Shown here piece after piece: positions 5,672 to 62,510 of a DNA stretch of 64,000 nucleotides. The notes beneath the pieces are model-generated. The model searched no databases, was not told the DNA's origin, and saw only the letters and a program-made list of their open reading frames with translations. The translations under genes and the position numbers were made by a program. The stretch comes from Arbacia lixula (taxonomy: Eukaryota > Echinodermata > Echinoidea > Arbacioida > Arbaciidae), in contig OZ022594.1 in the NCBI GenBank assembly GCA_963669155.1, forward strand, positions 18,465,585 through 18,529,584, given 5' to 3'. Position 1 is the stretch's first letter, and every line of letters starts with the position of its first letter.

Positions 5672-7192
5672 ATGCTAGAACTGTGGGAGAACTGGGCATC
5701 ACTACAAAGACTCTGCATGTCCAGCTAGGGTCGTGAATGCCGCCTGTGTGGTAAGAAGGGACACTTTGCCACTAAGAGAAAGCAGAGCCACAAACACAAG
5801 ATGCGACGGGTGGATGAGTCAGGAGAGGGATGAGAGTCATGATGAGACAGGGTACGCATTTGCCATGGACGCTGACAAGTGTACGAAGGTTCCTGTTGTG
5901 GTTGGAGGGATACCAGTCCAGATCATCATAGATTCTGGAAGTAACGCAAATATTATTGACAGAGCACTATGGGAGTTCCTGAAAACGGAGGGAGTTGCAT
6001 GTTCTTCCAGGAAGTGCAACAAGAACCTCTACCCAGACACATTTGTGAAACCACTCCAGATGATCGGATGTTTTACAGCGGTGGCCCAGGCTGGTGCTAG
6101 AAGTGCAGAGGCTGAATTTGTCGTCATTGCAGAGAAGGGTGAACCTCTGATGTGTAGAGAGACTGCATTGACCCTAGGTGTGCTACACATTGGAATAGAT
6201 GTGAGCACGGTGAAATCCTACGACGAACTGAGAGAAGAGTTCAAGCCTGTCTTCCAAGGTGTTGGAAAGCTGCACGACCGCCAGATCAAGCTGAACGTTG
6301 ATCCAGATGTAAGGCCGGTAGCCCAGCTAGTGCGACGAACACCATTTGGATTGAGGGACAGAGTGCAGGAGAAGATTCAGGAGCTTGTCGACCAGGACAT
6401 TATCGAGCCTACTCCGTGGGTTAGTACGGTGGTCATCGTCCCGTAGCCCAATGGAGACATCCACTAATGCATTGACATGAGGTGTGTCAATGAGGCAATT
6501 GTCAGGGAGAGACACCTGATACCAACAGTGGATGAAATACTCCAAGAGCTGTGTACGAGTAAGGTGTTCTCCAAACTGGATCTGAAGTGGGGCTTTCATC
6601 AGTTGAAGTTGGATCCTGAGTCACGAAGGCTGACCACGTTCGTGACACACTGCGGACTCTACAGTTAAAAGAGGCTGTTATTCGATGTGAATCCAGCTCC
6701 AGAGATTTACCAGCACAAGATTCATAGAGTGCTGCAAGGACTGCCTGGTGTCGCAAACATCTCAAATGACATCATCATCCATGGTGCGACGCAAGAAGAG
6801 CATGTTGACAGGCTACGACAGATGCAGGGTTGACTGTCAATGCAGACAAGTGCCTGCTTGGAGTGTCAGAGTTGGTGTTCATTGGACACAAGCTATCGAA
6901 AGACGGCATCAATCCTACCAAGGCCAAGATCGAGGCTGTAGCAGATGCATGTGAGCCGAAGAATGCAGGTGAGGTGCGCAGTTTCTTGGGACTAGAGAAC
7001 TTCTGTGCATGGTTCATCCCAAACTTGGCAACGGTGGTAGAACCCCTTCGAAGACTGAACAGGAAGGACCAGAGATTCGAGTTTGGCCCAGATCAGAATC
7101 AGGCTTTTCAGAAACTGAAGGACAGTCTGAGTAGTGCCTCCACACAAGAGATTGCAGATGCCAGCTTGCTAGTGCAGAAACAACATGGCTAG
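5672..7192 (+). pseudogene. Gypsy zinc knuckles, protease and reverse transcriptase (broken)
   Basis: Two CCHC-like knuckles lie at about 5672-5795: C.NCGRTGHH with an in-frame stop at the x position, and, in another frame, CRLCGKKGHF with its last cysteine lost. The aspartic protease active-site triplet DSG is at 5931-5939, within VQIIIDSGSN. Reverse transcriptase begins around 6190 with LHDRQIKLNVD and VQEKIQELVDQDIIEP. It breaks near 6446, then shows FSKLDLKWGFHQLKL (about 6570-6615). The expected YVDD catalytic box reads as NDII (about 6766), so the essential aspartate pair is damaged. The connection domain continues to 7192 (FIGHKLSKDGI, then VRSFLGLENF). Several frames are needed, so there is no enzyme activity. 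Confidence 0.85.
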
Positions 7193-8199
7193 TCCCGGAT
7201 TATTGCCTATGCAAGCCATTCCTTAACCCCAATACTCGCGGGGTATTTCAAAGCGTGTTATTACGGGGGGAGGGGCATTATGGCCCCCATTGAGATCTCC
7301 GCCACAGGTCGCCCGATTGCCTCAAAATTTTGCAAAAGGGTCAAGAATTATGTAATCTACAAACTTGTAAAACTAAATTTACGAAAAGTCCTTTTTATTT
7401 TTTTAAATTTATGTGAGAAATCATAGATTTTGGTCATATAGAGGTAGAGAAATAGCAAAAGTTTTGTGACATGTGTTAGGTCAACGTAATCTGACACCCG
7501 CATGGTACAGTAGGTCCGCTTGCCATAGATTTGGTATCAAAATGTGCGGGAAGGGTCAGAGAAAAAGTCATGAAATTTTGTTCTGATATATTGAAACGTT
7601 TGGAAGCACCGACAAAAATTCAACAGGAGGGGGGCCATAATGGCCCCCCCCCCCCCCCCCCCCGAGTATTAGGGTTAACAGCAGTTGAGAGGAGGTATTC
7701 TCAGACAGAGAGGGAGGCTCTAGGACTCGTATGGGCATGTGAACACTTTCATGCATATCTGTACTGGAAGGACTTTGAACTGATGACGGATCGCAAGCCG
7801 CTGGAAGCGATCTACTCACCCAGATCCAAGCCATTTGCACGTATCGAACGATGGATGCTCAGACTTCAGCAGTACCGGTACAGAGTGGTGTACATAGCTG
7901 GGAAGACAAACATTGCAGACTCACTATCCAGGCTGCTGGATGTAGACATACAGAGAAGCTCAACACTGGAGGATGAAGCAGAGTCGTTTGTCAGATTTGT
8001 CGCTACAGACTCTACCCCAAGGGCGATGAGGAAGACAGAGATAGAGGAAGAATCTGAAAATGATTCAGAGTTGCTAGATGTCAGAGAAAGAATCCAGAAG
8101 GTTGATTGGAATTCATGTCCTTACAAGGTGTATTCAGCCATCAGGGATGAACTTTGCATCATTGGGAGATCATTGGTGTGTTGTGAGGGAGTCAACTAG
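7193..8199 (+). pseudogene. Gypsy RNase H and tether region, split by a transposon
   Basis: The left part ends in IIAYASHSL just before TTAA at 7223-7226. The right part starts at 7675 with AVERRYSQTEREALGL and continues with HFHAYLYWKDFEL and TDRKPLEAIY, then IERWMLRLQQYRY and KTNIADSLSRL, the usual end of gypsy RNase H. The part that should hold the first catalytic aspartate block, between the connection domain and IIAYAS, is shortened. The stretch 7227-7674 is foreign DNA. After about 7960 the frame runs through an acidic linker to a stop near 8199. Confidence 0.8.
7227..7674. mobile_element. piggyBac-like non-autonomous element with TTAA duplication
   Basis: The insert is flanked by TTAA at 7223-7226 and 7675-7678. 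Its ends are inverted repeats: left CCCCAATACTCG, right CGAGTATTAGGG. A CCCTAATACTCG-type end beside TTAA fits piggyBac-like elements. A 20-C run lies at 7644-7663 and a G-rich tract near 7265, so the ends can pair further. No transposase is present (448 bp). A partial relative sits at 4440-4669. It lies cleanly within the gypsy RNase H coding frame. Confidence 0.8.
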
Positions 8200-12139: not shown

Positions 12140-14311
12140 CTGAATGAAGAAAATGAAATTGCAGAGTGTTAAATCATTCATAAGAAGATAAACACTACCT
12201 GTAGATCAGCACTAGCAGCCAGTTGTAAACATAACTATCATCAAGTATGGAATGTAAGATCAACTTTGTCATCGCTCTTTAAAGAGCTTCATAATGAAAT
12301 AATTATTTATGTTTTGTAAACTTTATGTGTGTTTATGTGGGTTTGTTTGTCTGCGTTTGTGAGCGCATGTGACAAAATCACACAAAAGAATTCTTTAGTA
12401 CAGGGATAAACAATTCATATTGGCTATAATTTTACATCACATCAGTTAAACTGACAATTTGTTTTCCCATTTGAGGAGAATTATGATTTATATACCATCC
12501 CACCCTCCGTTGAAAAATTGATCAAATCCCGGGATTAAGGTATAGAGGGTTCCCACAAGCAGCCATATATTGTGGGACAAACAATAAAAACCTGTGCATT
12601 AGACTAGTCATTGTTTTCTTGATTGCTATTGTATTGTCCTAAATCATGACATCAAGAAACCTCAATTGTAATGACCTGAGATGAAGGGGGGGGGGGGGGG
12701 GGGGGGTGGTTGTCTGTCCTGAGATAGAAGGTTGGAATATGAGAGTTCACCTGAGATAGGGGGGGGGGGAGTACATAGAGCAGTGTTCCAGATTTAGCAG
12801 GGGTCTCCAAGGCAGGGAAAGCCTGCAAAAGGGGGTGTAGCTGAAGCATCGTTGAGTTTGAATTGGTCGTTGGTTTTATTGTTCCAATTATGCTCCAATT
12901 GCTCCATAAAAACTGTACAGAGGAGATATAAATGAACAAATCATGAATCAACTACTCATGATCACTGCTCAGAAATCAAGTGACTCATGACTAATGTGCA
13001 CTTAACATGCTACAATTAATCTGTGTTAACCCTTTCATAATGACACATACATACCCATGGATATAATGTCAGACTTCTGAATAACACCTTGATTTTGTTT
13101 CCGTATAATATGCTTACATCTTGATTCCTTTCATAATTACCTCATGACATGTATCTTATAACCTAAACTTGGATTATTCATGAAAATTAACAGTTCCAAA
13201 TACGTATTAACTTTCTCAAGAAACACAATCAAGTGACACGTCTTTGTCCACCAACTCAAGCAAGGTAAATCATTAAACATCTCACGCATGCATTTCACTC
13301 GTGTGTCACATTTAACATTACATAATGACTGATGATGTGTGTAGTTCTGTGTACCAACATTATCTTCGCCACATACATGCATTGACGTAGTATCATAACT
13401 GTGTAATGTACACACAGACTGGTGTGCTAATCAAACATATCAAATCATGAATAATTTCACCCATACAACATTTACAACATCAATGACAATGTGCATGTCT
13501 TAACATACCTCCTTTCTGCCTTCTCATGAGCGTAGAATGTACATGTACATAATTGTGAAGGATGTCTTCAAATAACCAGTTTTCATACGCTGAAAGTCAA
13601 ATGTGGTGCCATTCCTTCGTAGCACAAATTAGCAGCCTCTAGATGGCGCTAGAATAATTTTGATCTACATCAGTGATCGAAACAAACTGAATTTATATCG
13701 CTTTACAAACAACATTTATATCGATTGCTGTGATGTTTATATCAATTATTATAATATTTAAATCAATCACTGCACTGTAACAGGGGGGTTCAGCAATTTT
13801 GGCAGATCTGAGATAGGGGGTGCTTTTAAAGGGAGGAAACGAGCATAGGCATAACACTGAGTGTGTGTGTGTGTGTGGGGGGGGGGGGTGGGGGGGGTAT
13901 ACCATCCAACAAAGTAACTTATACAGCATATTCTGCACAAATTATACAAATTGGAAGAGTTGAAGTTTTGTTGCAAGATCTTCAACAATTCTATAATGAT
14001 AACAATAATACTGTTCTTATATAACATATCATTTTAAAGTTGCGTTCAACTCTCTACATGCTTTATATATGTATTTATCAAGAATATCCCACCCATTACT
14101 CTTCAAATTTGACTTGCACATCAAATGTGAAGCGGGAAAGGCAGTTTGGATGTACATTTATACAATATGATTTCAAATTAGTTCATTTATTTTCCTTATT
14201 TCTAATTAAATAAAATCCTTCTCACGAGCCCCACGTCGAAGGCGTACTTAGGGCTGAAGGCGTGGAGTTCCTCGTAGGCCTACCTCCTGGCCTCAGTCAT
14301 AGACGGGAATA
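12140..14311. other. Non-coding stretch with long G runs
   Basis: No gene is seen. It includes a 21-G run at 12686-12706, a shorter G run near 12762 and a (GT)n-(G)n tract around 13860-13890. Confidence 0.5.
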
Positions 14312-14610
14312 ACCGTCTCATTCGGGGCATTCTTTAATGGAAATGACAATTTGGACATCCCCCGAATAGGGCGTTCAGAGGAGCCAGATGCAATCTCAGC
14401 AGATCCAACGTCCTACAAACTTACAAAGACTGATTTTTAGGTCTAACCTCCTCATTTATCTGTACGTGTACATACAACCCTAGACCGAAAAATCAGTCTC
14501 TATAGGACGTTGGATCCGCTGAGATTGCATCTGGCTCCTCTGAACGCCCTATCTTCTCGGGTATGTCCAAAATATTGCGATTAAAGAATGCCCCGAATGA
14601 GACGTTATAT
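14312..14610. repeat. Long inverted repeat able to form a ~130-bp hairpin
   Basis: Arms 14312-14445 and 14481-14610 are inverted copies around a spacer of about 35 bases. Matching blocks in order are GTCTCATTCGGGGCATTCTT, then TTTGGACAT, GGCGTTCAGAGGAGCCAGAT, GCAATCTCAGC, GATCCAACGTCCTA and GACTGATTTTT. Small indels separate the arms, so they have diverged. It may be a foldback transposon. No clear target duplication was found. Confidence 0.8.
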
Positions 14611-14949
14611 TCCGGCCTGTCTAATACAACCCTTTTTCAATTTTGAGATAATTTCACAATCTGCATACACACGTTTTCATTGCCCTGGGGTACAACTGAA
14701 CCTACTCAAAAACGAGTGCATGGGCCTGAAATGAGGTTCGTTTACCTCAGTCACAAACACAGCTATAGGGAGCTATTAAATTGCAAAACAAACATGCATC
14801 TAAATGCGCGGAAATGCTTAGCCTAAACACAAGGACATGACCGCAGGCTGGTTGCCTCCAGTGATTGATATTCCAGAAAATCAGTTTCTTTCAGTCAATA
14901 TTTCTCGAAACTTCTATTTTTTAGCCCAATCCATGCAATGAATTAGGCA

Positions 14950-15360
14950 ATATTTACATGTACTCAGCTCAGGTCTCAGTCTGCCTCAGTGTTGTTACTG
15001 TCAGTAGTCGACTAGCGGCTAGCCCCGGCTCCCGGCCGCGTGAGCGGGCTGGTCGCAGTGTAAACAGCAGTAGTGGCAGAACTGGCTGGAATTTAAATGT
15101 TCAACTACCTAGATCACACTTGTCCCGGCCCGAGGCATACATGTAAAGTCTAGGGGGAAATGATGTCTTGATGAACCTTATTTCTAGTCATGTGGCTTAA
15201 CTAGCATGGCAAATTTGTAAAATTTCATTCAATATGTGTAGACTTTACTCACCGTCCCTCCACCGTCGCGCCTGGCATACTCGATCGGCGACCCTGGCTG
15301 GCCTGTACGGCGTGCTGCGTGGAACAGATGCAGAGCGGAGCGGCTAGCGGCATGTCATGG
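14950..15360. promoter_or_regulatory. GC/CpG-rich island, possible promoter region
   Basis: Against AT-rich surroundings this segment is rich in GC and CpG (CGACTAGCGGCTAGCCCCGG, then CCGGCCGCGTGAGCGGG; and at 15260-15345 many CG steps). On the minus strand it holds a candidate first coding exon with a strong donor (15253). On the plus strand an open frame from 14958 meets a GTGAGC donor-like site at 15040 in a phase compatible with the exon at 18729. It could be a divergent promoter, but no TATA or initiator element decides this. Confidence 0.3.
15253..15278 (-). CDS. Candidate first coding exon of a minus-strand gene
   Basis: On the minus strand an ATG (15276-15278) is followed by 26 bases (MPGATVEG plus two bases) to a near-consensus donor, GACG|GTGAGTAAAG, with the GT at 15252-15251. 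The donor phase fits the acceptor at 12139. The surrounding island is CpG-rich, as expected of a promoter and first exon. The peptide is too short to identify. It is supported only by splice-site quality, phase and base composition. Confidence 0.25.
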
Positions 15361-15665
15361 ATCGAAATCCGAATTTGTTGACACTACGCTTGTGATCAAA
15401 ATTCACCCTTCAACTTCGTAGAAGAATAACATAACTTACACAGAAATAAAGCATAATTCAACTTGGCATGATCCTTGGTATTGATTTCATTGATACGGCA
15501 CGTTGGAAGTCAAATACAGCTTTTATTAATATTAGCATACTGCATATGTTACCGTCGTCCGAAAATCGTTGTTCGAGATTATACACGTACACGCGCGAGC
15601 AGCACCGATTCATGAATATTCATATTGTGGGCGGTACCACCATTGCCACATTTGCATATACAACC

Positions 15666-16215
15666 CATTATTTATATATAATGGTTTTGCGCTCGCCATT
15701 ATATATAAATAAAATGGCAATGTATGAGACGCCGTGTTTCTTTATTTATAAATAATGAAACGCAATTTGTCATTATTTATAAATAATGGAGTATGAATTG
15801 TTATTATTTATAAATAACGAAACTGTGAGATGTCATTATTTCTAAATAATGAAGTAAGAATTGTCATTATATATAAATAATGTGAATGTGAAATGTCATT
15901 ATATATAAATAATGAAGTATGAATTGTCATTATAAATAAATAATAGAAGTGTGAATTGTCATTATTTATAAATAATGAAGTATGAATTGTCATTATATAT
16001 AAATAATAAAAGTAAGAATTGCCATTATTTATAAATAATGATGTATGAATTGTCATTATTTATAAATAATGGAGATGTGAACTGTCATTGTTTATAAATA
16101 ATGAAGTATGAATTGTCATTATTTATAAAGAACAAAAAGTTGGAGACGAATTATTTGCAAATAAAAATGTATATTCACTTGCATTATATGTAAATAATGA
16201 TGATTATTAGTTAAA
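15666..16215. repeat. Higher-order tandem array of 18-bp palindromes, 63-bp dimer period
   Basis: About 16 copies of a near-perfect palindrome, CATTATTTATAAATAATG, are separated by about 13-base spacers. The starts of twelve consecutive copies are 15771, 15802, 15834, 15865, 15897, 15928, 15960, 15991, 16023, 16054, 16086 and 16117. The steps alternate strictly 31, 32, 31, 32. Two spacer types, AAGTATGAATTG-like and GTGAAATG/GTGAGATG-like, tend to alternate, so the true unit is a 63-bp dimer. Looser copies extend to 15666 on the left and about 16182-16215 on the right. Some palindromes carry compensating changes (TATATA centres). This is a satellite-type array, not coding. Confidence 0.9.
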
Positions 16216-16318
16216 TAATGATTATATAACATATAATTTGGCTATATAATTGATGGACACAGCGCGCTTCATAAGAGCCAACATAAATATTTAGGTGAAT
16301 TTTGAGGGAAAGAGGAGT

Positions 16319-16319
<1 letters not shown>

Positions 16320-16358
<39 letters not shown>
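16320..16358. repeat. (GA)n microsatellite
   Basis: An uninterrupted GAGA tract of about 38 bases follows GTGAGTGAGA. Confidence 0.9.
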
Positions 16359-16361
<3 letters not shown>

Positions 16362-17283
16362 TCCTGGCCACCTTGACCCCTGACCCCTGGGAGGAGGAAT
16401 TCCCCTGAACCTAGCCACTCAGCACAAAGCATGCTGGGCTTGTTGATCATAGCTGGTTAGTCTGGCTTCAAGGAAGGGCCAGCAATACTTTACTTTACCA
16501 CCACTCGCAATCATTCCAGTTCGAATCCAATTTCCATATGTAACCTGGCATACAGACATTTTTAATCTAAATTACAATATTCAATAACCTGGTCCCTGCT
16601 TTGACTAAAGGAAGTAAGTGACAAATCACTGAAGTTTGAGTCGTTGATGGTTTTACATTGTACCCATGTTGTACATAGGTTGTACATAGATTTTGACGTG
16701 AGACATTCAATCTAACATGTTGTGGTACTGCAAGGAAGAAAATGCACATGACTTACACATTTTGCCCATTTACAAGAATAGTTAACTTTGTTACTTGCTT
16801 CATTTTTTGTCAAAGTAGGGCAGTACTGTTTATGGGAACTTGGGAAGTCTTTGATATTCAGACTTATTGACAAAAATGATGCAGGCATGTCAGTTTTCAA
16901 TCCGTAGCCTAAATTCAGGCTCTGCTGCATTTTATTTCAACAAGTCATCAGACTGCTTGCATGGGAGCCAAGTTCCATTTATTTGTTTCTTGACTTGTGA
17001 TGGATCAAAGCCAAAAGATGTGTTACCTTATTTAGATTTAGGACAAGAATTGTGTTCCATCAATGTTCTTTATTGTATAACCAACCCCCTAAGGCATGTA
17101 GCTCCGTGCTACTGCTAGGTCTGAGTATCATTAGCTGGGTTTCGGTACTGAAGTGTCGAGTGAAATTATCAATGGGAAAAAACAGAGGAAGGAAAGTGGC
17201 TATTGGCATATAGGCGAGTCACTATGCTGTCTCAAATCTTCCTCATTAACATCAACAAACATAATGAGCTCCTAAAACAACAT
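16359..17283. other. Non-coding stretch
   Basis: No gene or repeat is recognised. Short open frames on both strands show no family motif. Confidence 0.45.
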
Positions 17284-23642: not shown

Positions 23643-24973
23643 GTTACACCAAGATACATAATGTGCGTAAGTTACGCATGACTTCATGCACAATCAGATT
23701 CTCAGTGAGTTTGATTCCCATCAGGTAAAGTTGAAATCTGATTTTTGTAGATTACCATTCTTGTTGCTAATATTCATCTGGATTAAGCCTGAGTCATATC
23801 GATTTTTTCAGAAACCGGTGTTCGATGGCTTTGCGCCGATCGAACATCGATGCATCGATACATGACGTCACCCAGCCACTGCCAAGAGCCAATTTATGAA
23901 TGAAAATATAGTAAGCATACGCAGTGCAATCCTTCCATTTCCCCACATAAACAAGCATGCAATTCTCTATCACCTCGTACCAAAATTGACCTAGAATTTC
24001 ACTTTCCTATATTTTATATGAATTATGATAGGTAACCTCGGAGAATCTATTTTCTCACCGATACTGCACATGTAAGCGAATTTCGATTACTTCTTGTTTT
24101 TCCGTCAAAATCTTACAAATTAGCGTCAATATGGCATCGTATACATGTATGTAGGTTGGAATCTGGAGAGTCTATATGCAACGGGCAGAAAGTCAATCAG
24201 CTTCCGGGTTGCGATTTTTTTTTTTCGTAACCCTAATGCGTCGAAAAATCGCTTCCGGGTTTCGGACAACGTGACTGGATATTGTATCACTGTTTTGGCG
24301 ACCACATGGTTATGACGTGATCTACGCGATGCACCAATCAGTGGTCTCCGAATCGCTGTACGGAGACGCTCTATTAGTCTGTACGTCGGCAGCGTGTATG
24401 CAAATGAGCCTTACGCACGATTGCCACTGTATTTCCGGGTTTTCACAACACACGATGCTATCCGTTGTACAAAGTCTATGGACAATTGTTTGTTGTGGCG
24501 TTGCGCTGTATATAGTAGTGAACGAATCAAATCCAAGTAGTATGTAGTAGCTGCTTGATCATCGAGCGACCTGTTCATTCTCTTGATGCGTTACCTGCAA
24601 AACTCACAAAAGAGAGTAGGAACCAAGTAAGCAAATTAAAATTGTGAAAATATGAAGATAAATTGTGTATAACAGGACTATCAAACAAAAGATTTTGTGT
24701 TTTCTAGTCAATTTGGTAATTTCGTCGATGCATCGAATTCATCAAAACGAAATCGGAGTTCGACTTCTTCGATCGAACACCGGCTTAATAATCGATTCGA
24801 CTCAGGCCTAATCTGGATACAACGTTTTCAAATTTGTCAAATTCGATTAGGATTGGAGGAAATTCACTCCCACCATGTTAAAACATGAAGACTTGGGGCA
24901 TCTCATTTAGTGCAAGAATAGGTCACCAGTCGGGCGTAAAGTCATGTGTAACTTACGCACATCTTGGTGAAAC
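23643..24973. mobile_element. Outer TIR element carrying a nested hAT-like insertion
   Basis: Left arm 23643-23684 (TTACACCAAGAT, a 7-base insertion, then GTGCGTAAGTTACGCATGAC) is inverted at 24940-24973 (GTCATGTGTAACTTACGCAC, then ATCTTGGTGAAAC). The bases between, outside the hAT copy at 23784-24810, add only about 300 bp, so the original element was small and non-autonomous. No target duplication was established. Confidence 0.6.
23784..24810. mobile_element. hAT-like non-autonomous transposon with 8-bp duplication
   Basis: The duplication ATCTGGAT sits at 23776-23783 and 24811-24818. The ends are inverted: left TAAGCCTGAGTCATATCGATT, shortened here to its start TAAGCCTGAGTC; right GACTCAGGCCTA. 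They continue with ACCGGTGTTCGAT on the left and ATCGAACACCGG on the right. An 8-bp duplication with TA(A/G)GCC-type ends fits hAT. The 1.03 kb interior shows no BED finger or RNase-H-like transposase. The interior CpG content is higher than in the flanks. Confidence 0.75.
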
Positions 24974-39239: not shown

Positions 39240-39670
39240 CTTTTTTATTATGACTACTGGCTCTGTATTATAAAGTCTTGAAATGCTGACGCCACTTTCA
39301 CAAACTCTTGAATCTTCATCTTTTAGATTGAAAGAATGTTCTCTTTATTGCTAGCACTGGCTCTGTATTTTTAAGTCCTGAAACACTGATTGCACTTCAA
39401 CAAACTTTTGGATCTGTGTCTCGTAGATACAAATAAATGCTTTCACATTGCTATGACTGGCTCCGTATCATTAAGTCCTGATGCACTGATTGCACTTTCA
39501 CAACTTTTGCATCTTTGTCTCATGTATTAAAATGAATGCTTTCACATTGCTACGACTGGCTCTGTTTCATTAAGTCCTGATGCACTGGTGGCACTTCAAC
39601 AAACTTTTGGATCTGTGTCTCATGTATTAAAATGACTGCTTTCACATTGCTACGACTGGCTCTGTCTCAC
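39240..39670. repeat. Tandem repeat, 100-bp period, about four copies
   Basis: TACGACTGGCTCTG or a close variant occurs at about 39452, 39551 and 39651, with an older copy near 39355. The units share TTAAGTCCTGA(T/A)(G/A)CACTG, CTTCAACAAACTTTTGGATC and TGCTTTCACATTGC. The right-hand units are most alike, which suggests recent expansion there. Confidence 0.85.
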
Positions 39671-39899
39671 GAAGTTGAGAAGCCCTGACGAAACTTCCAC
39701 AGAGGACAGACTCACGTTCTTCACCACGGAGATTAGAAGGTGGGCACGTTGGGTGTTTCTCTGCCGTCGAAGGTCGCTCGTATCCATTATAGATCGAGAG
39801 AGACGAGTGGGACTCACGGCGAAGGTTTAAAATAACTAGCGCTGTCATCCACACCTGGTTTTCTCCATGTACTATCTAATGACACTGGCCATGTGCATA

Positions 39900-40055
39900 C
39901 AGAAGGGGGACTTAAAGAGAAACCCTGATAGTAAGTTCAATTCTCCATACAGTAGGGCAACTTAAAGAGAAACTTTGATAGTAAGTTCAATTCTCCATAC
40001 AGTAGGGCAAGTTAAAGAGGAACCCTAATAGTAAGTTCAATTCTCCAAACTACAA
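39900..40055. repeat. Tandem repeat, 50-bp period, three copies
   Basis: The unit AGTAGGGCAACTTAAAGAGA, then AAC..TGATAGTAAGTTCAA and TTCTCCATAC is present three times with few changes. Confidence 0.9.
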
Positions 40056-40609
40056 TGGAAAAGTCAACCCATAATGCACTTTGCAGCGTTTTTTACAGTC
40101 ACATAATACACTGTGCAGCATTTTTGCAGTCCACTAACTTCTAAAACTCACCATTGATATTGACTTTGCTGCCAATGGCAACTTCTATAAAAACCTTGAA
40201 TTGATTGGTTGTCGAGCGGTGCTACGACATTTGTTACCACTGATGGCAGCGTTACCATTAGTGTGAGTTAGTGTAATACATTAGATCCGAAATGGGTAGG
40301 ACTTCAAAATTTTTCCAGCTGTTCTGAGCAATATTGGACGACTTTACCCTGTATGCAGTATGCATTTAACTTATCAATCAATTTATGTTATTACTATGGA
40401 AAATAACAGCAAAGTAAAGGTGATATCATAAGGGTTTTGTTGCTCTTTAACATCACTTGGTCCGTGTTTGTCACATGGTGTGTTAGGGAAGGTAAATGCA
40501 TGACTCCTATTCATACAAGGTATGTTCGCACCAGACTGGTATTAGAAAAACAGGACGATGACATCTGGTCAAGGAAATTCGGGCCATGTTGTATATAGGT
40601 TTTCGATTA

Positions 40610-40695
40610 TGGTAACTTACCATCAATGGCAACTACCATGGTAACAGGTGTTATGATGGTTGTTAATAGCATGGTAGGTACCATTGATGGGAGGT
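40610..40695. repeat. Short inverted repeat around GGCAACTACCATGG
   Basis: ACCATCAATGGCAACTACCA (about 40619) is roughly inverted by GGTAGGTACCATTGATGG (40674), with ATGGT repeats between them. It is a small hairpin. Confidence 0.55.
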
Positions 40696-41892
40696 TGCAA
40701 TAAAGTTGAAAACATATAATGCAACATGGCCGAGACCGGTTGAAATCGTGCCTGTCTTCGCCACCAGACACAAGTAATGGGCACACTACAGTGAGAGCTG
40801 ATAAGACTGCCACGCCCTCCCCCTCTCTCAGCCACCCCCTCCCCTTCCCCCTCTCCTGCCCCCCTCTCCCCCTAGCTCTTGCTATTATGTATTGCAGGTA
40901 GATGTCTCTCTATGTTCTTTGTGTTGCAAGATCCGCAAGCTCTTAAAATCTTCCTGGGTGACTCTTGGTCTATAACAGACCTGTAGGCCACAAAATAGGA
41001 CATTATTCAGCGAACTAGCCCATGTTTTTCCCTGAAAGTATTCCCCCAACCCCACTACATCTGTCTCATGTAATTTTCTTGGATTGGTTTTGAAACGTGG
41101 GTCGGAATGCAGATGTGGCTGTTGGGTGTTAGGAGCGTTGGAGGGAGGGACTGTTGTTTGTTGGAGTAGGAGGAGGAGGAGGAGAAGGAGGTGAGTGTTG
41201 TGCAGAGATACTAGGCTTCGTGTGTGTATCTGACAGTGACTCACGGACGTGCTCTAAATAGATTGTTTCCCTTTCTACTTGTCATCATGTTTTCCGTGGC
41301 TTCCTGGATCGTCTACTGCCTTCTCCTCAAGGAAAACCTGCCCCCGTATGGCAGCGTTCACACAAGGCTTTCAGAACATTGACACATGAACGTGGAGTCG
41401 TAAAGAGACTGCGTTCACACAAGGGTTTAACCCTCACATTACCGGGCCTTGAAAACCCTATTGGCTTATGACGCATCTTTATGCCAATGATAATGAGAGA
41501 GTTAAAGAGTATTTAAATACAGGGGGAGTCGTCTAGAGACTGCATTCACACAAGGGTTTAAAGAGCATGGACATACAATGGGAGTTGTGTGGAGGCTGCA
41601 TTCACACGAGGGTCTAAAGAGCATGGACATACAATGGGAGTTGTGTGGAGGCTGCATTCACACGAGGGTCTAAAGAGCATGGACATACAATGGGAGTTGT
41701 GTGGAGGCTGCATTCACACAAGGCATTCAGATCATGTACACATATATATCGGGAATTGTGTAGGCAAGGCTGTAATTCGCGCAATGCTTTAAAGAGAATG
41801 TACATACAGGGGGAGTCATTTAGAGGCTGCATTCACACAAGGGTTTTAGAACATGTACTGTACACATAAATGGGAGTTATATAGGGGTTTAA

Positions 41893-43269: not shown

Positions 43270-44279
43270 TTCATTGAATGTTATCAGCTGTTACCTTCTT
43301 CTATCAGCACATGTTTTACAATCAATAACTTATACAATGCAGGTACAGGTATTGTCCCTGTATGTAGTGAATATCTGCGCTAGCTCGGAGTGTGGAGAGA
43401 GAGAGTCTACCGTGTCTAAAATGCTTTAAAATTACATTTTTTGTGTGTATATGATCTGTGTTTTTAGAGGCTCGCTGGAAACTTATTCAATGACGTGCAT
43501 CGGTAATATAGCAGTATCATCATGATTATGGCAAATGAATGGGGCTTTTGTCATCATAACCTTGGTCTACTCACAACATGATCTACTTTCAATCAAGATG
43601 TATTGTGATGTACATGTACTCACAGTACCATGTAACATGTCAGTGCATACCAGAGGCTCTTCTATTCATATGAAGACGCACTTTATCACAAGGGGATGTG
43701 ATGTTGACTGTTTTGCAACTGTTATCAGGATTGTATACAATGATAGAGCCAGTATTGTGTGGTCACGGCTGGCTTGTATCCCAAATGCAGTAACTAGTGA
43801 TTACTGTACATTTTCAGATTATTTTTGGAAAGTCAAAATGTTATTTGATTTTTTATCCAATCAATGGTTTGATTTTCTCAGGATTTGCTAGCATCATGCA
43901 TTATTTGAAAACATTTGATCGAGTATTTGATTATATGTTATAAATCCTTCTTATTCTTATTGATGTCATTGAATTAAATGGAATTGATAATATATATGGT
44001 TTATTCAAATAGAAATAACAGTACACAAAAGTGACACTCTGTGGTTCATAGGCCAAATTGAGTGTGACTTACCATTTTTACATCATAAAAATGATTCATA
44101 CAATGTAATGAAAAGTAAACAAAATATAATTGTCAATACAGTTTAGTATAAATATGCCAAAGGATTGGCTAATTTGTTTTTTTTTTTATTGCACTTGGTA
44201 TTTATCCATATTGTCATACTTGTTGTATGAACAAATGTACATGTGATACAATACTAATGGTAATCTCATGTCTTGTTTT
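43270..44279. other. AT-rich DNA upstream of the main HIVEP exon
   Basis: No gene is seen. An open frame at 43535-43891 has no recognisable family and lies in intron-like sequence. Confidence 0.45.
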
Positions 44280-44302
44280 CACCCGTTTGTTCTTTGCTGC
44301 AG
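44280..44302 (+). other. 3' splice acceptor of the main HIVEP exon
   Basis: CACCCGTTTGTTCTTTGCTG followed by CAG gives a pyrimidine tract and AG at 44301-44302. The peptide in frame before it is hydrophobic, low-complexity and unlike the basic N-terminal sequence that follows, so the exon starts at 44303. Confidence 0.8.
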
Positions 44303-47300
44303 ATGACATCTCAGACCTTGCCAAGAACCCTCCGTCCAGCAGGAAGAGGCATCATGGCAAGAACAAGGCCAAGTACAAGAGTGCCATGAAAGTCAAGATC
44401 ACCGACAGAGTGCGGCAAAAGAGAGAGGCCAAAGCCCAGAGAGAGAAGCAGAGCCAGCTCCTCCCAGAGACCCTGGGAGCTCTTCAGGTGGAGTACACCC
44501 CTATCCCCAAGCAACCGCAGGAGGTACAACCCCCTCAGGTGCAGGAGATCGTCAAAGAGGCACTCGTCATCGTGCCCGAGGTCTACAAGGACAAGTACGA
44601 TATCATCAAGGAGAGGCGAGCGCGCATGTCCAGGATATCGCAGGAGCAGCGGTCGTCATCGCCTAGTAAAACAGCCAAAGAGGGTGTCGCAAGTAGCCCA
44701 AAGAAGCAGCAGCGTCAGCGGCATGCGTCATCGGGGAGCCAGGTCTCAGACACCGGTGTATCAGTACTGAGGAACTCGGAGAGCGAGGAGGAAGGTGCCT
44801 TGAAGCAGCAGGCGCTTGAAGCGCTGTTGGAGATCACAGGGAAGGAGTTCAAGAGCATGAACAATACCAGTCCAGAGCAGCTCAGTCAGCCAATCTCTGG
44901 AGACGCAGTGGTCACTCCGCGCACCCCTCCCGTAGCGACAAAACAAAAGAGCACAAATCTGAAGAGTGATGTGGAGGATTCGCGTTTATTACAGTTTACT
45001 AACAATCCTCAGGTAGTCCAGGCTGCCTGTGTGCAACTCTCGCAGCAGAATCCCATCCCAAAGACTGAGGACATCATTGGTCACAAAGAAGACCAGCAAC
45101 AAAAAGTGGACCATTCGAAAAGTGTGTCGTGTGCGAAAGATCATAGCGATTTGGATTCCAGCAATAAACAAGGGAAGCATGTTTGTGAGTATTGTGGGAG
45201 GAGATGTTCCAAGCCTAGCGTGCTGAAGAAACACATCCGCTCTCACACAGGGGAACGTCCCTACCCCTGTCCTCCTTGTGGGATTTCCTTCAAGACGAAG
45301 AGCAACCTGTACAAGCACTGCAAGTCTCATGCCCATGCAGCAAAGGCAGGGACCTCAGGAACCCTCCCAGACTTAAAAGTACTGGACTCGGAGAATGAGA
45401 GCGGGTCGGATGAGACCGACACCGACGAAGAAGGAAAAAGCGTAACAGAAGAGCAGCGGAATCCGCAGACCCATATCCCCGCACAAACCTCTGCCTCAAA
45501 GCATCTACCAGCTCATGATAATATTCCGAAGATGACGCAAGCCAGTATGCAGGCGTATGTAAACGGAGGAAGGACGCTGATACCGGAGAGCCATCCCACC
45601 TTCGCGCCATCTAGTAAATCACAGTCCTCTCCCATCGCCAGTCAGACCGGTAAGGCACCGTGGGAGGCGTCAGCAGCGGCGTTCTCCAACTCCGCCCGTC
45701 TCGCGGCAGCGGCGGCGGCGGCTGGCACCAGCCACCCACCAGACCTGCAGATGCTGTCCCACCTCTCCACAGACATTCTCAGTGTGAAGAAAGGGAAGGA
45801 GCAGAGGGGTCATTTACCGGGAGGAAGTAATACCAAGAGTGCTGAGAGTGGCGGTCTCTTGCACACTAACCATTTAAGTGAAGGGAGGAGGAGACCGATG
45901 GAACAGGCATCGCCAAGGCAACAAGAAAGCCAGCAGCCATCACCACACTCAAGTCAGTCACAGTCTGATGACCAGATAATGATACCACTAAAGAACTTCA
46001 ATATTGTGAAATCTGGGGGCCAGTATCATTTCCAGATTCCAGTCGAGGGAATTCCCGGCTTATCAGAGGAAGTCCTCAAACAGCAGAGAATGTGCATGGA
46101 GGGCGGGAAAGAAGTTCAAAAGGAAAAAGGAGAGAAATCTCGGCCCACGTTGAATTCACCGTCAACACAAATAAAGCTGCAGCAGCACATTCAAAAACTG
46201 ATCACACAAAACGAAGCAATAGTGGATGACTCAGATTTGGAGTCTGTGAAACCAAGAAGACCGAGTTTTTCATACAGAGAGAGCATGACGAGCACCCCAC
46301 CCCACGTCGCTGCAAGCAGCACTCCAGAGCTGCTCAGTGAGTCAAGGAATGCAGCAGAAAGCAATGCAGTCACCATGGAGATGAGGAGAAGGTCAGAGTT
46401 GGCTGAGCAAACTAATTTAGACAGCAAGCAGGAAGTCAGAGGAAATCATGATAGACAGCGGGAAGCAGAGACTCTTAAGGGCAGCCAATACACCGCACAT
46501 CTGCACACGGGTCAGCCAAGACCCGACCCCCCCTCCAAGGCAGCGGAAGCAGGCATCAGTGCAGGTCATAAGCTGCCAGCTTCCTCGCCAGTTATTCTGC
46601 AGCAAGCCATGCCAGGGGACAGTAATACGATTAGAAATATTCTACTCCAGCACAAGCTGACACAGCAAGCGCCTCCTGCCAGTATGCTGGGCCAGAGTTT
46701 GCCCATGGATCGCCAACAGTACTCACCCCTGTGGTCTCCCGCACAAATGGTGGCGCCGTGGATGTTGAAGGAGGCGCTGCAGGGGGGCTTGAAGTACCCC
46801 ATGCCGGCCATGTACCACCCCGCCATGATGCAGCACGTACCCCCTGAACACTTACACCCGCACCCTCACTCACCCGGTGCTCAATACATGAAGGAAAGCC
46901 CCCAAAGCAGCCAGCAGCAGCATGCAGAGAAATCCGGTCACAAGCGGAAAAAGGGCAAATCCGAGAGCGAGCCGTCTGGATCACGCGATGGGCACCACTC
47001 GCGCAAAAGGGCCCGCAAACAACACAACCACCATTCTACTCCTCAAGAGGAAGAAGCTGCAAAGGGCTTACCGTTTCATAATGCTGCTCACAGTCATTCC
47101 ATGCTGCCAATGTTTTCTCCGCCGTTCCCGGGACCCGACGCAAACCAAGCTGCCTCTCAACTCCCGTGGTTTCATGCGTCTTTGCCAAAAGGTACGTCCA
47201 CCCCCCTCAGAAGCCCCTACTCTCCCAAGCCGTTTGTTAAGGCACCTGAAGCATCGTTCCCTGGAGTCTCCGTCATCCAGCATACCCCAACGACCCCGCA

Positions 47301-50300
47301 CGCACCATCTCAGTTCCCCATCGCCGGCCCCAGCTCCTATGCACCTGACAAGCCTGAAGAGAAAGTTCACCGGACCAAGGACATCAAGAGCCCGATGCCG
47401 CGCTATCACGGCCCGCCTGGGAACAGTAGGGGCGATGTGCACCTTGCCAGTCCGTCTCTTCCCCATACAACTCACTCCGATGGACTTCTCAAAGTGGCAC
47501 CCCCTCAGTCCCCGCTCACACCGAACACATTCAGTCAAGGGAGCCCCATGATACCAAGCGCGCCATCGGTTGAGAAACAGGTTAAACCAAAAGACCTGCA
47601 GGATATGCCGCAGATGTCTGTGAACGAAGCGCTGGCAAGGAAGAAAAAGAGCTTCACTTTGGCTCTGGATGAAAGCAGTGCTCGTGCTAGTCTGCAGAAA
47701 CGGAGAAATCTTCCTGCAATTCCTGGATTGAACATGAGCCCTAGTCGGTCAGTGCCAAGTAGGAGAACACCCAATGAGCAAACTCGTGCATTGGACCTCA
47801 CTGCGAAAATCCAATCCATGGGATCACCAATGTCTGCCAAAGTTCCTCGAGGTGATCTTTCTGCACGCTCCCCTGCTTACACTCCGACTGAAGGAGGGAA
47901 GAAATTTCCGAAGTCCCCGATGAAATATGGAGCTGGAGCAGCCGCTAGACACCGTCTGAGTCTCGATCTGCAGCAACCTTTGACAGCAGCCGTAAAGGGG
48001 TTATCGACTCCTGATGGAGCAAAACCATCACCCAAGATTGATCCACGGGTTCTGCTCTCCCCTGAAGCACTGTCTATAGCTGAGTCAGTGATGAAGATGT
48101 CGCAATCTCCTATGAAGGCCAAAACTCCAAGTACACCGGTGGATGCTGCACGAGAGCTAGGACGGCTGGTCGCCCATGCCTTTCATAATGCTGGTGGGAG
48201 CATCAAGAGTGTGTTGACTACGTCGGATGAGGGGGTGATTGTTGGACCCATTGCCACGCCCACGGCTGAAGGTAAACCGCAGTCTAAATATTTCATCTTG
48301 CCATCACCATCCTCCTCCCATGCGCCCAGCTTCCCTTCAAGCTCCTCTCCCAGATCAGAGAAGTCACCGCTGACCCCAAGCGACTCCCTCAGCCCATCGC
48401 AGGGGAGACCACAATCTGGCAAACGAGATGTCTCCTTCGACTTCCTCAAGACCGATGCTCCTGCTAAAGAAGAGCAAAGTGCAGAAAACGTGGAGCACCC
48501 ACCGAGTAAGATGCGTAATGGAGATGATCCAAGCCCAGTAAAACAAAAGCCAGAAGAGCCGGCATCCAGCGGGGGACTTTTTACTGGTACTGATGAAATT
48601 CTTAAAATCTTGACGCCGGTGATGAAGCAGAGTCTGCCCAAGGCTGCGCCGAAGAAGCTGGACAAGAGCCTTGCTGATTGGTTTGCCAGCGTGAAGACCA
48701 ACAAAGCTGGGAGTGGCCCTGCGCTGGCTCCTACATTCTTATATGCTAACATCTCGTCCAGAATGAAGGGAGTGGCGCAGGTGACCGACTGCACCTCCCG
48801 GCGGCTGCAGCCCATGTATGTGCCGCAGGGATCCAGCAACAAGATCTCCATGTACTCCAACTGGCGGCCAGGAGGAAACACCAAGAACCCACTGGGCATC
48901 TCCTGGAGGAAACATCTTGGTCTGTACAACTCAGGACTGAACAAAGACGACATCAAGGATGTTGTTTCCAGTATCTGTCCACCAGGGAGTGGTATCCTGA
49001 CTCATTCTTCTGCGTGGAATATGTCAGAGGAGAGAATCAAAGTGGTCAGCGAGGGCCTACAGAAGCCGGTGACGAGCAAGACTTGTGCTGTGACACCCAC
49101 CGAGAGCTGCAGTGAGGCTGGAACTCCTGTGTCCTGTCCAGACTCGGAGATGGCCATAGACAGACCTGCAAAGGGGAAAGAACCAAAGAGGATAGCAATC
49201 TTTGAGGGAGGCTTCAAGTCGAACGAGGAGTATGTCTACGTCCGAGGCAGAGGCCGGGGGAAATACGTCTGCCAGGAGTGTGGGATCAGGTGCAAAAAAC
49301 CAAGCATGCTGAAGAAGCACATCCGCACCCACACAGACGTCCGGCCTTTCCAGTGCAGCGTGTGCAGCTTTGCGTTCAAGACAAAGGGCAACCTGACGAA
49401 ACACATGAAGTCCAAAGCGCACACCAAGAAGTGTCTGGAGAGCGGCATTAACCCGTCGGATCTGGAGCAGGAGCATGGCATCGATTCTAGTGCCTATGAG
49501 GACGGGGACGACCATCAGTACTCGGATGCTGATGATAACGAAGACACCGACTCTGCCGATGAAGACTCTGAGGAGGAGGAGATGGACGATGGGATGGATG
49601 AAGACATGGAGGTCGATGATTCCCCTCAAGTCCTGCATGAGCACCATGACACTCGGCCGTGCTCAGATGGAGAAGGCGTCCACCCTCATCCCAAGCTCAA
49701 GAGGAGCAACAGCGAGATCCTGAAGCCTTGGGATCCAACTAAAGATGATCCAACGCAGGGTGGCAAACTCTCCAGGTCAGAAGTGGTGTGCAAACTGTCT
49801 CAGCACCTCAGCAACAGACAGCGTGCTCATGGTGACCAGGACAGGAGCGACACACACTTGACAAAGTCCAAGAGCCTGTCTGTCCTCCCTACCTCCAGTG
49901 ATTTCTTCCTCCCCAAACGATCATCAAAGAAGTCACAGCCACTTCCGGTCCTAGACAAGTATGGTCACATTGTTGCAATGGATTCGTTTGTACCATGCAC
50001 CCACCAGTATCGGCTTGCCACAGGAAACTCATTGCCATCAGAGAAGAAAACTGACATTGCCATGGATACCGACGATGCACCCTTATCTGGTGGTTTGTCT
50101 CCATCAGGTGCTCCTGATGATAATAAGAAGGTGGACAATGATGATGAAAAAAAGGAAGGGCATGATGCTGTGAGGTTACCAACAGAAAGTATAGCATCGA
50201 GTAGCCAGAATCCTAACAGGAAACGGAAAGCATCTCTAACTGAGAGCAAAATATCAGAGCCACGACCATCCGTCCACTCGATGCTGTTTCCTGGGAGTGC

Positions 50301-51489
50301 GGCAGTCAAACCTCATGAAAGCTTGATGAGAAGACAAGATAAGTCAGACTCCAGGATGAGATACTACTCTGCCAGTTCTCATGAAATGAGATCTAAAACG
50401 CCACCCGTCATTGAGCCGGTGTCAGATGATGATGAGGACACCAAGATGACCAAGTCTGATGTACCAGCTCTCGCCTCGCCCCAGACCAGGACGATGGAAG
50501 CCTCAGGGAATGCCATTAAACAGCTGCTGCTCTCCAAGCCCCCTGTCTGGCCCGCCCAGGTAGAACATCCCTCCCTTCAGAGCTTCATCTCACCGTTCCT
50601 CCCGCCCTCTCCTTCACTGCACACTGCCCCGCTTCCATCACCAACCCACCTGTCACCTTTCTCCCCCGGTCCGTACACCCGTCTCGTGTCTCCGATGCTT
50701 CCTTCGAAGATGTTCCAGCTGCCTCCCACTATCCTCCCGATGCACCTTCCGCCGAGCTCCACCCAAGTTAAATCAGCTCCACTGCCAGCGGATGTAGAGG
50801 CTGCATCGTCATTGGGCAGTAAGGATGACGCTGGCTCCCCTGCCCCCTCCTCTCCTCCTCTACCCCATCCAGAGAGTCCGCTGAAGGAGAAACCGATGGA
50901 TACGGGCGTGGAGGATGCGGTGCAGAGGACACCGGAAGAGGAGCGGCTACCACTGTCGCCTACCGGCAGCCTTGGCCACCACCGCTGCCCTCTGTGTGGG
51001 GAGACCTTCATCAAGCCCAGCCAGCTGCGGATCCATGCCAGGGTCCACACCTCTGAGGGCACCTACACCTGCCACGACTGCTCCCTGTCCTTCCCCACTA
51101 AGTACGTCCTCTCCAAGCATGAGCGGTCCGAGGAGCACTTCCTGCGAGTGGAGGGGGTGGAGCTGGCCACCACCACGGGCATGGACTCCAATCCCCGCCC
51201 CTTCAAGTGCAAGGAGTGCGCTATCGCCTTCCGCATCCCCGGCCACCTGGCCAAGCACCTGCGGTCCAAGGGCCACCTGATGACGCTGGAGCGCCAGGGG
51301 AAGCTCCCTGCGCACAAGCAGGAGCTGCTGCACCTGCACCCAGATCACCAGGACGGTGGGGAGGACGGATCAACCGTGGGGTTAGCGGAGGGATCAACGG
51401 TGGGGTTAGCCGAGTCCAAGACTCCGGTCAGCCCCACATCGTCCGAGAAGACGGATAGTGCCAGCGAGGCAGAGGAGGGCAAGTCATGA
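44303..51489 (+). CDS. HIVEP/Schnurri-family zinc-finger transcription factor, main coding exon
   Basis: A nuclear DNA-binding regulator. Family members bind kappaB-like sites and act with Smads in BMP/Dpp signalling. The exon encodes about 2,394 residues and its first two bases complete an Asp codon. Residue numbers count from the open frame's first codon at 44227. ZAS-N: two C2H2 fingers at 320-370 (C320, C323, H336, H340; C348, C351, H364, H368/370), then an acidic Ser/Thr stretch. NLS-like basic clusters lie at 905-938. A block at 1503-1597, ending TKNPLGISW and LTHSSAW, resembles the vertebrate HIVEP region before ZAS-C. IFEGGFKSNEEYVYVRGRGR then leads into ZAS-C (C1682 to H1732), followed by an Asp/Glu-rich tract (about 1750-1800). 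A third cluster of three fingers is at 2254-2350 (C2254...H2274, C2282...H2304, C2328...H2350). Vertebrate HIVEPs lack such a triplet and Drosophila Schnurri has one. No middle CCHC finger is seen. The stop TGA is at 51487-51489. Confidence 0.93.
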
Positions 51490-61847: not shown

Positions 61848-62510
61848 GTAGTGATGTTAATGGTGATGATGATAATGATGATGACGCTGATGGTGATGAT
61901 GATAATGTTGGTGATGGTGATGGCAATAATGTTGGTGATGGTGATGGCGATAATGATGATAGTGATGGCGATGTAAATGGTAATGATGATGATGATGGCG
62001 ATGTAAATGGTAATGATGATGATGATGGCGATGTAAATGGTAATGATGATAATGATGGTGATGTTAATGGTAATGATGATAATGATGGTGCTGATAGTGA
62101 TAGGCCTACTGATGGTGATGATGATAGGGCTGATAATGATACTGATGGTGATGATGATAATGATGGTGCTGATAATGATACTGACGGAGATGATGTTGAT
62201 GATTGCTGATAATGATAGTGACGGTGATGACATTGATGATACTGATTGTGATGATGATAGTGCTGATGATACTTATGGTGATGATGATATTGATGATAGT
62301 GCTGATACTGATGATGATACTGATGGTGATGATGATAGTGCTGATAATGATGATGATATTGCTGCTGTTGATGATGGTGATCATTGATCATCATGATAAT
62401 GATGAAGATGATGGTAAATGTGATGATGAATGAGCTGTTGAATAAAGCGAAGACGATGGTGATGACAACGTTGATACTGAAGAAGATGGTGATGATGACG
62501 ACGATAATAA
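61848..62510. repeat. (GAT)n-type microsatellite with an internal 30-bp unit
   Basis: Over 600 bases are built from GAT, GGT, AAT and GCT triplets. Between about 61965 and 62085 the unit GATGGCGATGTAAATGGTAA plus TGATGATGAT repeats with a 30-bp period. All six frames are open for long stretches (Asp-rich, Met/Val-rich, Ser/Pro-rich or Ile/Thr-rich), as expected for a triplet repeat with few TAG/TGA in phase. Confidence 0.95.

Follow-up and report, generated by a model that had tools for sequence, protein, structure and literature searches.

An array of AT-rich palindromes with a 63-bp dimeric repeat unit in the sea urchin Arbacia lixula: a probable minisatellite

Background

Tandem arrays of short palindromes can be read as the product of repeat growth or as the sites of dimeric DNA-binding proteins, and the array reported here, from a 64,000-nucleotide stretch of the Arbacia lixula genome (hereafter the 64-kb window), invites both readings. 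We find that its 17 palindromic monomers are arranged around a 63-bp dimer, and consider that it is probably a local AT-rich minisatellite built of dimeric units, grown by slippage and/or unequal exchange and without a selected function. As a minisatellite the array is ordinary and of a known kind.

The history that we propose begins with a monomer of 31-32 bp, carrying an 18-bp palindromic core, which would have been duplicated; the two copies would then have come to differ in the sequence of the spacer and, by one base, in its length, and the resulting 63-bp pair would have been amplified via replication slippage and/or unequal exchange. The palindromes may have aided this growth as hairpins on single-stranded DNA, and the expected outcome would be an array whose central copies are alike and whose edge copies are degenerate.

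One feature, the uneven conservation of the segments of the dimer, is left unexplained by plain decay. If this uneven change were the work of selection, the array would represent a clean natural test of whether it matters, near an animal gene, that dimer sites are in phase on the helix, since the sequence of the spacer would be free while its length is fixed.

Organisation of the array

The monomers, of around 31 bases each, are non-coding and share the consensus CATTATTTATAAATAATG, in a tract with an A+T content of 79% (Table 1). At up to 3 mismatches CATTATTTATAAATAATG is matched 16 times, in comparison to a mean of 0.15 and a maximum of 2 in 100 dinucleotide shuffles; the 17th monomer (16149), which is less well preserved, was located visually from its palindrome of 7/9 pairs. 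Twelve monomers, starting at 15771, 15802, 15834, 15865, 15897, 15928, 15960, 15991, 16023, 16054, 16086 and 16117, form a core in which the steps alternate between 31 and 32 bases without exception. An earlier note on this DNA had described just such an alternation over twelve consecutive palindromes, which stands when counted from 15771 but not for a start at 15666: the steps to the 5'- side of the core are 31 (15666 to 15697), 43 (15697 to 15740) and 31 (15740 to 15771), and those beyond 16117 are 32 and then 33.

The 63-bp dimer period given in the same note is borne out by these twelve starts and by the autocorrelation that it had proposed as a check, which over the core takes values of 0.867 at 63, 0.861 at 126, 0.556 at 31 and 0.536 at 32, with a baseline mean of 0.354 over lags 5-199. 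Tandem Repeats Finder returns a 63-bp unit in 6.2 copies with 86% matches at 15742-16129. Head-to-tail tandem units of period 63 lie within the range of about 10-100 bp that is taken to define a minisatellite, and other minisatellites, with units of 50, 56 and 100 bp, are present in the 64-kb window. It is the edge copies that are degenerate and that bear the length changes, which is consistent with minisatellite growth.

Table 1. Coordinates of the array, its parts and the adjoining CpG-rich stretch within the 64-kb window
Feature	Position	Strand	Remarks
Whole array, 17 AT-rich palindromic monomers	15666..16199	.	Degenerate at both edges
Core, 12 monomers with strict 31/32 alternation, 63-bp dimer	15771..16134	.	
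49-bp module with less variation (two palindromes around the 13-bp A spacer), example	15771..15819	.	Per-segment identity and parsimony changes
Variable 14-bp B spacer, example	15820..15833	.	13/23 inferred changes in five dimers, 20/33 in six
5' edge, two monomers	15666..15739	.	Steps 31 and 43; second monomer with 6/9 pairs
3' edge, two degenerate monomers	16149..16199	.	Each with 7/9 pairs; step between them 33
CpG-rich stretch	15201..15800	.	Observed/expected 1.4 and 1.6 (two 400-base windows) vs 0.56 window-wide

Symmetry and folding of the palindromes

Most of the palindromes are imperfect, with all 9 of their 9 pairs kept in 4 of the 17, 8 pairs in 6, 7 in 4 and 6 in 3. The earlier note had suggested that symmetry is maintained, pointing to variants with a TATATA centre as still palindromic. 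These variants, at 15697, 15865, 15897 and 15991 with a mirror form at 15666, carry a T to A change at position 7 which breaks the palindrome, losing pair 7 on one side, and their recurrence is as expected of inherited variants. Maintenance of symmetry by compensation was rejected: 24 of 153 pairs are altered, both sides are altered in 2 of these and a single one, the TTTGCAAA centre at 16149, is compensated. Maintenance of pairing between neighbouring palindromes through paired changes was rejected likewise, with 1 both-sided and 0 compensated changes across 6 A-to-B and 5 B-to-A pairings. The scarcity of compensated changes agrees with a minisatellite, and paired changes would have been a supporting, though not a strictly defining, sign of a phased array of dimer sites.

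Extrusion of each monomer as a cruciform, another suggestion of that note, would be weak, as DNA hairpins of single palindromes are predicted at -2.2 to -3.8 kcal/mol (3 of the 17 monomers folded). Neighbouring palindromes pair with one another as predicted DNA hairpins of -11.2 and -8.8 kcal/mol, with z of -6.9 and -4.4, in the two stretches folded. Such folding would be better suited to slippage on single-stranded DNA than to the extrusion of cruciforms monomer by monomer.

Helical phasing

A mean step close to three helical turns had been read as placing all of the palindromes on one face of the helix. The arithmetic of this proposal fits: for the 12 core centres the Rayleigh R is 0.989 at 10.5 bp per turn, falling to 0.817 at 10.4 and 0.802 at 10.6, and for all 17 centres it is 0.957 at 10.5 bp, where the centre of the second monomer is set at 15706.5. 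The palindromic sites of the core thus lie a whole number of turns apart, but because the alternation is one 63-bp dimer copied several times the independent evidence amounts to a pair of spacer lengths (13 and 14 bp) and not to eleven concordant steps. Moreover, a mean step of about 31.5 bp is also what plain duplication of a 31-bp unit would yield, and until there is evidence to the contrary helical phasing is to be regarded as following from the length of the unit.

Uneven change within the dimer

The four segments of the dimer, namely the first palindrome, the A spacer, the second palindrome and the B spacer, occupy 18, 13, 18 and 14 columns of the alignment and show identities to the six-dimer consensus of 0.972, 0.962, 0.898 and 0.738, respectively. 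Under maximum parsimony, the tree for five dimers assigns them 2, 3, 5 and 13 changes, which places 10 inferred changes in the 49-bp block of palindrome, 13 bp and palindrome against 13 in the 14-bp B spacer; the terminal dimer (16086) was excluded from these counts because it is the most diverged, and with it included the six dimers give 3, 3, 7 and 20. Besides the examples in Table 1, copies of the 49-bp module start at 15834, 15897, 15960, 16023 and 16086, and other B spacers at 15883, 15946, 16009, 16072 and 16135.

For the largest 14-column window of changes, whose length was picked to match the B spacer, five dimers give P=0.002, and with six dimers none of 3000 permutations attained it. 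Three control arrays from the same 64-kb window, under the same treatment, show no unevenness (P=0.61, 0.78 and 0.91), although these are weak controls: they have 4, 6 and 3 units, the period at which they were cut was fixed, gapped columns were dropped, and the shortest has 8 changes only. When unequal exchange was simulated under neutrality, 609 of 3600 runs had 19-27 changes and a window of 14 arose in 7 of these 609 (5/361, 0/157 and 2/91 for the three mutation rates), or in 4 of 609 when judged by share of changes. The counts of change may be inflated by gene conversion, as one tree is assumed yet two B spacers, those after 15928 and 15991, are partly A-like.

Likeness between monomers, taken over the palindrome and the last 10 spacer bases, is 0.95 for A-A, 0.82 for A-B and 0.76 for B-B comparisons, and a B-B value below that of A-B runs counter to a simple two-type dimer history. 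Mean dimer identity drops with distance, from 0.84 to 0.78, in keeping with the minisatellite reading. Counting against it, the 11 core steps pass without a length change despite 33 inferred changes in the six dimers; going by the 100-bp control array, where three comparisons of adjacent units show 6 gap events and 51 mismatches, a few length changes would be expected in the core, though the core run was picked for having none.

Compared with the B spacer, the palindromes and the A spacer have changed much less, which speaks in favour of some constraint. Causes other than selection may be at work, for example imprecise junctions in the B spacer. Selection is invoked by the reading of the array as a phased cis-regulatory one, in which each palindrome would be bound by a homodimeric factor that prefers A/T and selection would act on the 49-bp module, whose two sites lie 31 bp or three turns apart, with the B spacer merely keeping the modules in phase. 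We hold this to be unlikely. It would account for changes that spare the palindromes and the A spacer and for a B spacer whose length is constant in five dimers despite 13 inferred changes, and it agrees with the R of 0.989 for the 12 centres, with the adjoining CpG-rich stretch and with motif matches, of which there are 20 of YTAWWWWTAR type and 21 of TATAWAWR type on the plus strand of 15661-16215, together with 9 matches to TGTCATTA in 15761-16140 that start 9 of the 12 core palindromes, all of these being raw counts. Such motifs, however, arise easily at 79% A+T, perfect palindromes number 4 of 17, one-sided changes to the pairs are tolerated and spacing is lost in the edge copies. A chromosomal phased operator, made up of selected modules, each with a pair of 18-bp A/T palindromes at a distance of three turns, and of B spacers fixed in length and free in sequence, is more doubtful again; if true, dimers would be stacked along a single face of the helix, next to a CpG-rich stretch that is promoter-like.

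An analogy for the working of this kind of layout, once a dimeric protein binds, is offered by the family of repeats (FR) of the Epstein-Barr virus (EBV) oriP, which in the excerpts of its description is given as 18-bp palindromic EBNA1 dimer sites in 30-bp repeats, 30 bp being, on our own arithmetic, about three turns. The EBV repeats are viral and have a known binder (EBNA1), whereas the array described here is chromosomal and its palindrome is itself A+T-rich.

Mobile elements, DNA unwinding and coding potential

The array might instead represent the central tandem repeats of a non-autonomous transposon, a Helentron-type HINE or a MITE, and have spread with the element. In the excerpts of the respective papers, short satDNA-like arrays of the oyster sit in HINEs (PMC7492417) and DINE-1-like elements are reported in sea urchin and molluscs (PMC4067079); as with our array, the HINE/DINE-1 (Helentron) arrays of these excerpts are short, lie in invertebrate euchromatin and have a microsatellite near, but their units are mostly of 140-180 bp and not 63 bp (PMC7492417, PMC4067079). 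The flanks offer an (AG)n microsatellite at 16311-16358 and an inverted pair at 15382-15407/16294-16319, a 26-base match of 77% with 12 exact bases at 15396-15407/16294-16305, the ungapped score of which was reached in 2 of 500 near-flank and 2 of 200 wider-flank shuffles. Against this, a match at the less strict HINE level (10 exact bases, or 11-15 bases with at most 1 mismatch) is contained in 12 of 40 shuffled flank pairs when the right limit is set at 16310, and in 15 of 40 when it is set at 16420.

This one possible subterminal pair has neither of the HINE companion features, an inverted repeat beside the 5' arm and a palindrome soon after the 3' arm, at the flanks of the array: the 25 bases that follow the left arm hold no complementary inverted repeat of at least 6 exact bases, and the 60 bases that follow the right arm (16306-16365) hold no stem of at least 6, the one 7-base stem lying farther off at 16359/16395. 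In the opposite orientation no pair was found and the microsatellite falls on the wrong side of the array. Nor do the array and its flanks have a second copy in the 64-kb window, a BLAST of 13901-17000 against which returned no further array or flank copy, the AG-tract and single matches of 18-25 bases aside. The flank pair speaks for a transposon and the absence of its companions against one, and overall we hold this reading to be improbable.

It is very unlikely that the array is best understood as unwinding or matrix-attachment DNA, that is, as an A+T-rich tract that opens under torsion and excludes nucleosomes, with one strand devoid of G over stretches of about 30 bases. Both the A+T content and nine C-less runs of 27-46 bases on the plus strand of the core would fit, but composition alone yields such behaviour, and neither the palindromes nor the dimer would be needed for it.

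A coding repeat, with 63 bp translated to 21 residues, was rejected on account of its short open frames. The longest inside the array, of 83 aa on the minus strand (15808-16059), runs across four dimers, and on the plus strand a frame of 101 aa (15450-15755) reaches into the 5' edge; both are judged to be due to chance. The 64-kb window gave no Rfam match at the gathering threshold and no tRNA.

Comparison with known repeats

In architecture the array resembles FRA16B (33-bp unit) and FRA10B (unit of about 42 bp), two AT-rich minisatellites of the human genome, which in the excerpts of their descriptions are A+T-rich tandem units of similar size. According to excerpts of two studies, FRA16B DNA forms secondary structure and stalls polymerase in vitro, and 14 copies are enough to make forks stall and regress in vitro (PMC2944998, PMC9714581). 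The FRA sites have expanded to kilobases, whereas the Arbacia array has 17 copies in about 0.5 kb. The 'mirage' minisatellites of amphioxus, an invertebrate chordate, are described in part of their report as showing concerted evolution inside the array and diverged boundary units, as well as duplicating exon-intron borders, which sets them apart (PMC3087553); the main text of that report contains no word beginning 'palindrom'.

Exact-pattern scans, of one pattern each, gave no match in viral contigs (two scans) or in GTDB genome contigs (one), and phage records gave 15 matches with E-values of 0.09-0.3. In the literature text searched, which lay mostly outside subscription papers, neither ATTATTTATAAATAAT nor descriptions related to phasing (5 of 6 terms required) were found.

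Genomic surroundings

The CpG-rich stretch adjoins and overlaps the 5' edge of the array and may be a promoter. An exact octamer-type ATTTGCAT lies within it at 15650-15657, directly before the array, and is one of six octamer-type sites, in both orientations, in the 64-kb window. The array had been placed near the 5' region of a HIVEP-like gene, a claim that is unproven: the frame concerned, of 2438 aa at 44173-51489 and with widely spaced groups of C2H2 zinc fingers, starts about 28 kb away, and a second CpG peak at 24001-24800 means that the stretch beside the array does not place its start. From its spaced zinc fingers we take this frame to be HIVEP/schnurri-like in layout.

Several other repeats share the 64-kb window. 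A MITE-like element at 14314-14604 has inverted ends of 31 nt (94% complementary), which enclose two nested sets of inverted arms, one 50 nt long (98%) and the other 24 nt (88%). Pieces of a retrotransposon, presumably Ty3-like, lie at 5679-8199, with an RNase H domain in 7495-8196 (PF17917, E 1.5e-17) and no Pfam match in the first piece (5679-6443). Three minisatellites are found close together at 39256-41846, with units of 100, 50 and 56 bp, in which the best 18-mer palindrome keeps 5-6 of 9 pairs (one unit examined each). Finally, a long TGATGA-type repeat at 61852-62429 is crossed by long open frames on both strands.
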